A stretch of DNA of 39,389 nucleotides from an uncultured Methylophilaceae bacterium (GTDB lineage Bacteria; Pseudomonadota; Gammaproteobacteria; Burkholderiales; Methylophilaceae). Below, piece by piece: positions 1,814-37,219 of this stretch. The position numbers and the translations under genes are program-made. The notes below the pieces were generated by a model. The model was not told the DNA's origin and searched no databases. It saw nothing but the letters and a program-made list of their open reading frames with translations. The stretch is taken from the NCBI GenBank assembly GCA_903909015.1, contig CAIVUE010000081.1, positions 1-39,389 of the forward strand, in the 5' to 3' direction. Position 1 is the first letter of the stretch. Each line of letters opens with the position of its first letter.

Positions 1814-1948
1814 ATGAAACGCACCTATCAACCATCAAAAGTTCGTCGTGCACGTACACATGGTTTTTTAGTTCGCATGAAAACTCGTGGCGGTCGCGCA
1901 GTGATTGCTGCACGTCGTGCTAAGGGCCGTGCTCGCTTAGCTGTATAA
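1814..1948 (+). CDS. rpmH: 50S ribosomal protein L34
   Basis: 44-codon ORF not in the supplied track because of its length: [44 protein letters not shown]. Confidence 0.98.
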
Positions 1949-1998: not shown

Positions 1999-2343
1999 AT
2001 GAATTTTAAATTCCCAAGTGAATTAAGATTATTAAAAACGGATGATTTTTCATCCGTTTTTAATTTCCGCAAGCGTATTGCGGGTCCCACCTTAGTAATA
2101 CATTATCGAAATAATGCGCAACAGTCCGGTCGCCTTGGTTTGGTGGTGAGTAAAAAGATTGCAAAGTTATCGGTTGATCGTAATTACATGCGAAGAGTCT
2201 TGCGGGAGCTTTTTAGACGCAATAAATTAAATTTCAATAATGTTGATGTGGTGATCAGGCCACAAAAGCCATTTGGCCCAAAAAATTACAATGAAATTGC
2301 GCTAGAGTTTGATATGCTAACGACCAAGCTTAAAAGCAGATAA
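1999..2343 (+). CDS. rnpA: Ribonuclease P protein component
   Basis: 114 aa, immediately after rpmH; contains GRLGLVVSKKIAKLSVDRNYMRRVLRELFR. Confidence 0.95.
   Translation: MNFKFPSELRLLKTDDFSSVFNFRKRIAGPTLVIHYRNNAQQSGRLGLVVSKKIAKLSVDRNYMRRVLRELFRRNKLNFNNVDVVIRPQKPFGPKNYNEIALEFDMLTTKLKSR
2031..2064 (+). terminator. Terminator-like inverted repeat inside the rnpA coding region
   Basis: ATTAAAAACGGATG-ATTTTT-CATCCGTTTTTAAT: perfect 14-bp arms, GC-rich CGGATG core followed by a T5 run, at about codons 11-22 of rnpA. Confidence 0.75.
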
Positions 2344-18382: not shown

Positions 18383-18410
18383 AAAAAAGGCAGCTTAGGC
18401 TGCCTTTTTT
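18383..18410 (+). terminator. Intrinsic terminator of the atp operon
   Basis: AAAAAAGGCAGC-TTAG-GCTGCCTTTTTT directly after atpC. Confidence 0.92.
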
Positions 18411-31066: not shown

Positions 31067-31096
31067 AAAAAAGGGTGCTGAGCACCCTTTTTTCTT
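31067..31096. terminator. Intrinsic (bidirectional) terminator between gltD and hemE
   Basis: AAAAAAGGGTGCTGAGCACCCTTTTTT, in the 68-bp gap downstream of gltD. Confidence 0.88.
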
Positions 31097-37184: not shown

Positions 37185-37219
37185 AAAAACGGACACCAAA
37201 TCGAGGGTTTTGGTGTCCG
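37185..37219 (-). terminator. Terminator-like hairpin in the gltB leader (candidate attenuator)
   Basis: Minus strand CGGACACCAAA-ACCCTCGA-TTTGGTGTCCG followed by TTTTT: perfect 11-bp stem ending about 25 nt before the gltB ATG. Confidence 0.75.

Follow-up and report, generated by a model that had tools for sequence, protein, structure and literature searches.

How a single operon might supply the ribosomal protein L34 (rpmH) and the RNase P protein RnpA (rnpA) is the question raised by this locus, since L34 is required at ribosome stoichiometry, in far larger amounts than RnpA, which is needed at a low level. The stretch of DNA analyzed here (the window, 39,389 nt) carries the gene order dnaA, rpmH, rnpA, a yidD-like ORF, yidC, and mnmE. 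The original prediction held that a hairpin embedded in the start of rnpA is an intrinsic terminator, and that premature termination there sets the ratio of L34 to RnpA; it added that active translation of rnpA could counteract the hairpin. The comparative data partly support this interpretation overall.

Hairpin structure and terminator score

The original prediction placed a 14-bp inverted repeat with a 6-nt loop at 2031-2064, inside the start of rnpA and downstream of rpmH. The repeat (ATTAAAAACGGATG / ATTTTT / CATCCGTTTTTAAT) is present; it begins at nt 33 of the rnpA ORF, 82 nt past the rpmH stop, and occupies rnpA codons 11-22. The predicted fold lengthens the stem to 15 bp around a UUUU loop, as A2045 and T2050 pair too, with a free energy of -18.8 kcal/mol (z -5.86); none of 200 dinucleotide shuffles was equally stable. 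The core hairpin corresponds to rnpA codons 14-21 and begins ~40 nt past the start codon, with ~20 of the 114 codons lying ahead of the U-tract. The U5 run that had been described is T2057-T2061. The description of the stem as GC-rich was slightly generous, as 4 of the 8 bp adjoining the U run are G-C and the remainder A-U. The arrangement is that of an intrinsic terminator, an 8-bp core with 4 G-C pairs followed directly by a U-tract (U5-NN-U3), and the RNA 3' end is predicted at about 2061-2066 (Table 1).

Table 1. Coordinates, in the window, of the hairpin components and surrounding genes
Feature	Position	Strand	Remarks
dnaA	149-1549	-	
rpmH (ribosomal protein L34)	1814-1948	+	Gene upstream of the putative terminator; ORF translation
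rnpA (RNase P protein), ORF of 114 aa	1999-2343	+	Host of the embedded element; Pfam PF00825 match from residue 5
Whole inverted repeat, 14-15 bp stem, 4-6 nt loop	2031-2064	+	Sequence read and fold
Upstream A-tract (Lys AAA), complement of the U-tract	2035-2037	+	Change-tolerant; AAA in 46/47 Lys codons
Core stem 5' arm, ACGGATGA, codons 14-16 (T D D/E)	2038-2045	+	Invariant or compensated in 159 distinct sequences
Tetraloop, variable sequence	2046-2049	+	Loop codons GAT/GAA/GAG, TTT/TTC/TAT/TAC/ATT
Core stem 3' arm, TCATCCGT, codons 18-20 (S S V)	2050-2057	+	Same 159 distinct sequences
U5 tract	2057-2061	+	Phe wobble base (2061) is T in 157/159; its partner pairs in just 60%
NN-UUU, rest of the U-rich tail	2062-2066	+	Next codon ends in T (2064) in 152/159

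Terminators were scored by a d'Aubenton-Carafa-type measure (our own code, after the published formula; cut-off >0). Three sites on the + strand of the 39 kb window score above the cut-off: 18389-18404, 31073-31087, and the rnpA hairpin. The first two sit between ORFs, leaving the rnpA hairpin as the sole + strand scorer within a gene. Strong ordinary terminators between ORFs are found at 18389-18404 and 31073-31087, which score on both strands, and at 37190-37219, which scores on the minus strand. Scores of the rnpA element lie just modestly over the threshold (median d 6.0), and its termination efficiency is therefore uncertain. A search of positions 1500-2500 against Rfam returned sub-threshold matches only, none near the gathering score.

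Distribution and gene context

Relatives of rnpA in the Methylophilaceae were collected by protein search, leaving the DNA unconditioned (30 loci, about two dozen genera). All 30 share the DNA core (A/G)CGGAYGA-N4-TCRTCCGTTTTT at the matching rnpA codons and contain AACGGATGA(T/A/G/C)TT(T/C)TCATCCGTTTTT, though RnpA identity to the window sequence falls to about 44% among them. At the level of the order, rnpA was identified by Pfam profile from 130 genomes and the DNA of 110 genes was read. The motif [AG]CGGA[CT]GA-N4-TC[AG]TCCGT occurs, always at one fixed codon position, in 52 of these genes from 21 families (carriers) and is lacking in 58 (non-carriers). Proteins with [TA]D[DE]xSSV are exactly the 52 carriers of the DNA motif, so that selecting carriers by DNA or by protein yields one list. 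The terminator score exceeds 0 in 52/52 carriers and 0/58 non-carriers; an equivalent rnpA hairpin in other Gammaproteobacteria likewise scores as a terminator in 0/30 families.

A DNA pattern scan of GTDB genomes, with each match oriented, returned at least 120 stretches. Among the 120 matches listed, 106 pass checks for an rpmH or RnpA signature, 4 more are rnpA by translation and lie at contig or locus edges, and the remaining 10 lie outside rnpA in unrelated bacteria. Named carriers among the matches listed include Burkholderia, Paraburkholderia, Caballeronia, Cupriavidus, Ralstonia, Pandoraea, Massilia, Herbaspirillum, Thauera, Zoogloea, Aquitalea, Snodgrassella, and Methylobacillus. Of 398 genomes sampled across the phylum, 15 have an exact match, and 14 of these belong to the same order as the window. 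A near-identical hairpin with a U-tract was also observed outside rnpA in unrelated bacteria (L169:1945-1971, L154, L180, L251), among them Clostridia MAGs and Haemophilus parainfluenzae; in H. parainfluenzae the sequence comes after a stop codon and serves as an ordinary gene-end terminator. The possibility of a dispersed repeat (uptake sequence, REP-like, or BRE) was rejected, as the element is single-copy in its own genome; carrier genomes generally contain one palindromic site each, with few weaker matches.

The hairpin is thus conserved in many beta-proteobacterial families and is not a local accident. The original prediction could have failed at this point, had the arms not persisted in close relatives; an intrinsic terminator embedded in rnpA withstands the comparison, persisting in 30/30 Methylophilaceae and well beyond. 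Both the breadth of the element and its sequence invariance were absent from that prediction.

Four families (f21, f31, f34, f44) mix carriers and non-carriers, and this patchiness suggests repeated loss. In two small genomes of a carrier family (L149 and L150; family f31, genus g54) the hairpin is absent and an in-frame stop lies where the rnpA N-terminus is expected; the first part of rnpA has apparently been lost. No replacement terminator was found between rpmH and rnpA in the 58 sampled non-carriers. The element is therefore not indispensable, as more than half of the rnpA genes sampled in the order have neither it nor a replacement.

Gene context is fixed on the upstream side: in every one of the 52 carriers rnpA is preceded by rpmH, encoded on the same strand. 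The element accordingly occupies the position of an internal operon attenuator, past a ribosomal protein gene and in the lower-dosage gene of the operon. Between the rpmH stop and the Pfam domain start lie 13 to 167 nt, whereas the position of the hairpin in the rnpA frame is constant, which is what a signal tied to the codons should show.

Conservation of pairing, tail, and codons

Pairing was analyzed in 159 distinct sequences; these are related, hence the counts do not represent independent events. Core pairing is near 100%, a figure partly preset by the pattern used to collect the named sequences; that pattern left the tail past TTTT, and its opposing bases, unspecified. The compensatory synonymous change in the arms anticipated by the original prediction occurs in two lineages, one of which shows a wobble intermediate: a single stem pair, T-A, has become C-G in families f37 and f50, as well as in L257, and G072 has the T-G intermediate. 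The first stem base changes from A to G (Thr to Ala) in 13 sequences, retaining a G-U pair. However, ACG...TCC never swaps, and the stem is more invariant than a simple terminator requires; this may leave room for an additional, sequence-specific function.

The bases opposing the U-tract, on the A side, vary more than the U-tract itself, and the U-rich tail is retained even at positions that lack a pairing partner (157/159 T). The terminator score exceeds 0 on the sense strand in 156/156 sequences and on the antisense strand in 22/156, a strand asymmetry that tells a terminator apart from a DNA palindrome. Tail retention and strand specificity argue for a partial intrinsic terminator and against either a DNA palindrome or a pure protein constraint.

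Synonymous sites give a similar picture. Arm codons are fixed in the carriers (Thr ACG 43/43, Ser TCC 52/52, Val GTT 52/52) and the Phe codon after Val is TTT in 50/52, whereas the Glu codon of the loop is free (GAG 23, GAA 21). Among genomes with GC3>0.6, Val is encoded by GTT in 27/27 cases within the element versus 26/158 (16%) elsewhere in rnpA, and Phe by TTT in 25/27 versus 28/81 elsewhere; the codon after Phe ends in T in 26/27, versus 158/979 (16%) at other codons. When the sequences of relatives were shuffled among synonymous codons, only 6/2080 shuffles reached the native terminator score, placing that score far beyond chance. Selection works on the nucleotides of the element: the compensatory change, the T-G intermediate, the tolerated G-U pair, and the shuffles (6/2080) all indicate selection on pairing, and not on protein only.

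Proposed function and alternative explanations

We consider it likely that the element serves rpmH as an intrinsic (Rho-independent) terminator of moderate strength, written over rnpA codons 11-23 and acting partially, which would allow bulk L34 and scarce RnpA. RNA polymerase, having passed rpmH, would reach the hairpin and the U5-NN-U3 tail ~110 nt beyond the rpmH stop. Some polymerases would halt there and release a short rpmH mRNA whose 3' end is protected by the hairpin, while the remainder would continue into rnpA-yidD-yidC; the outcome would be L34 at ribosome stoichiometry and low RnpA from a single operon. The structure, the grammar of a terminator, conservation that is strand-specific and acts on the nucleotides, the compensatory change, and the fixed gene context are all observed; from them we infer that transcription terminates here in vivo, in only a fraction of cases, and that this serves to set the L34:RnpA ratio. 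Partial termination setting this ratio would fit the gene order, with rpmH upstream in every one of the 52 carriers, and the element probably lets cells make much more L34 than RnpA from one operon. Read-through presumably occurs, since rnpA is essential. The terminator would have been written into rnpA codons because the intergenic space is very short, and would now dictate part of the RnpA sequence (T/A-D-D/E-x-S-S-V-F).

By this account rnpA would be the gene truncated at the embedded element. The terminated rpmH mRNA would hold, in its stretch from window positions 1999-2061, the rnpA start and ~20 codons with no stop, so that ribosomes starting there would need rescue. Such a stop-less rnpA start in terminated transcripts would be a cost for the model to absorb, and counts against this explanation.

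The partial terminator could alternatively be a regulated attenuator, in which ribosomes on rnpA, or RnpA/RNase P or L34, would unfold or stabilize the hairpin, so that read-through tracks translation or RNase P status. In its fuller form, this would be a conserved beta-proteobacterial attenuator with read-through controlled by early rnpA translation or by the state of RNase P, and the stop-less rnpA stub would be deliberate. The hairpin core, lying ~40 nt past the rnpA start, would be reachable by an early elongating ribosome, and the invariance of the stem sequence exceeds what pairing needs. However, the variable rpmH-rnpA spacing (13-167 nt) leaves no fixed leader geometry visible, an unsystematic search found no antiterminator, and a terminator of fixed efficiency is the simpler account of the data. 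We regard both forms as unlikely; the fuller one, if correct, would tie tRNA-maturation capacity to ribosomal protein synthesis.

Less likely again, to the point of being quite improbable, is an RNA processing or stability element that works without termination, whether as a target of RNase III or RNase E or as a 3' hairpin that shields rpmH mRNA once it has been cleaved. A stable, conserved hairpin between genes of unlike expected dosage would suit such a role. However, processing has no need of the U5-NN-U3 tail, yet the wobble T is kept in GC-rich genomes and where it is unpaired, and the stem is shorter than in typical RNase III substrates.

A DNA palindrome recognized by a chromosome or replication protein close to dnaA/oriC would explain the near-perfect dyad and the divergent dnaA found upstream in 92 of the 106 named carriers among the matches listed, though in 4 named carriers among these matches at least 2.5 kb of upstream DNA contains no dnaA. 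Conservation is also asymmetric: the T-tract is kept while its mirror on the A side drifts, terminator scores favor the sense strand (156/156) over the antisense (22/156), and the G-U pairs spoil DNA dyad symmetry while preserving pairing in RNA. This reading is very improbable. The proposal that protein constraint or codon bias only is at work, with RnpA helix-1 residues encoded by a palindrome through accident, draws on the conservation of RnpA residues F..VF in many Gammaproteobacteria but has almost no chance of being correct. The synonymous sites refute it as a complete account, with arm codons held constant there in spite of genome GC while loop codons vary. The Ser-Ser pair, present in all carriers, is found in 0/56 non-carriers.

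Comparison with known systems

The E. coli operons rplL-rpoB and rpsU-dnaG have internal attenuators below ribosomal protein genes, located between genes. Archaeal RP-RNAP operons similarly contain internal termination sites (PMC10450193). What is proposed for rnpA resembles these systems in that partial termination past the gene of an abundant ribosomal protein would lower a scarce downstream protein. Unlike the intergenic E. coli attenuators, the rnpA signal lies inside the downstream ORF and is conserved in sequence over many families.

Intrinsic terminators inside coding sequence are known from Bacillus subtilis brfA and E. coli arfA, and for brfA it is proven that a terminator within the ORF makes stop-less mRNA (PMC6881298). 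The rnpA element is comparable in placing a Rho-independent terminator in sense codons, with a stop-less mRNA as the expected product; for brfA, it has been shown that synonymous changes can break the terminator. However, the brfA terminator is near the end of its ORF, the truncated protein is functional, and control is by trans-translation (PMC6881298). The rnpA element shares the location inside an ORF but neither the position near its end nor a functional truncated protein: it sits at codons 14-21 of about 115, so a product truncated there cannot function as RnpA, and the beneficiary would be the upstream rpmH.

RNA 3' ends internal to ORFs have also been mapped in E. coli, some with intrinsic-terminator scores (PMC7815308). 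These are E. coli sites, to which the rnpA element is likened through its location in coding sequence; neither rpmH nor rnpA is mentioned in the main text of that study. The start of rnpA in E. coli K-12 forms another hairpin, GGGAGTTA/TAACTCCC, without a U-tract (L301:3016-3038), and a related genome (L272) has GGGAGTC/GACTCCC at the equivalent place in rnpA, again without a U-tract, a hint of a separate enterobacterial structure. No description of the rpmH/rnpA element was found in the searchable literature, though an earlier report in older papers on the E. coli rpmH-rnpA operon is possible. Internal operon terminators and ORF-internal terminators are kinds already known; what appears to be new is the rpmH/rnpA element in beta-proteobacteria.

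Implications

The patchwork of carriers and non-carriers within one clade makes the function of the element directly testable. Synonymous recoding of rnpA, or its annotation as plain coding sequence, would overlook the element. The Ser-Ser pair would clearly exemplify how an RNA signal can impose amino acids on an essential enzyme. If the proposed function is correct, the element would be a simple and deeply conserved answer to the problem of how one operon can yield a ribosomal protein in large amounts but little of an essential RNase P subunit.
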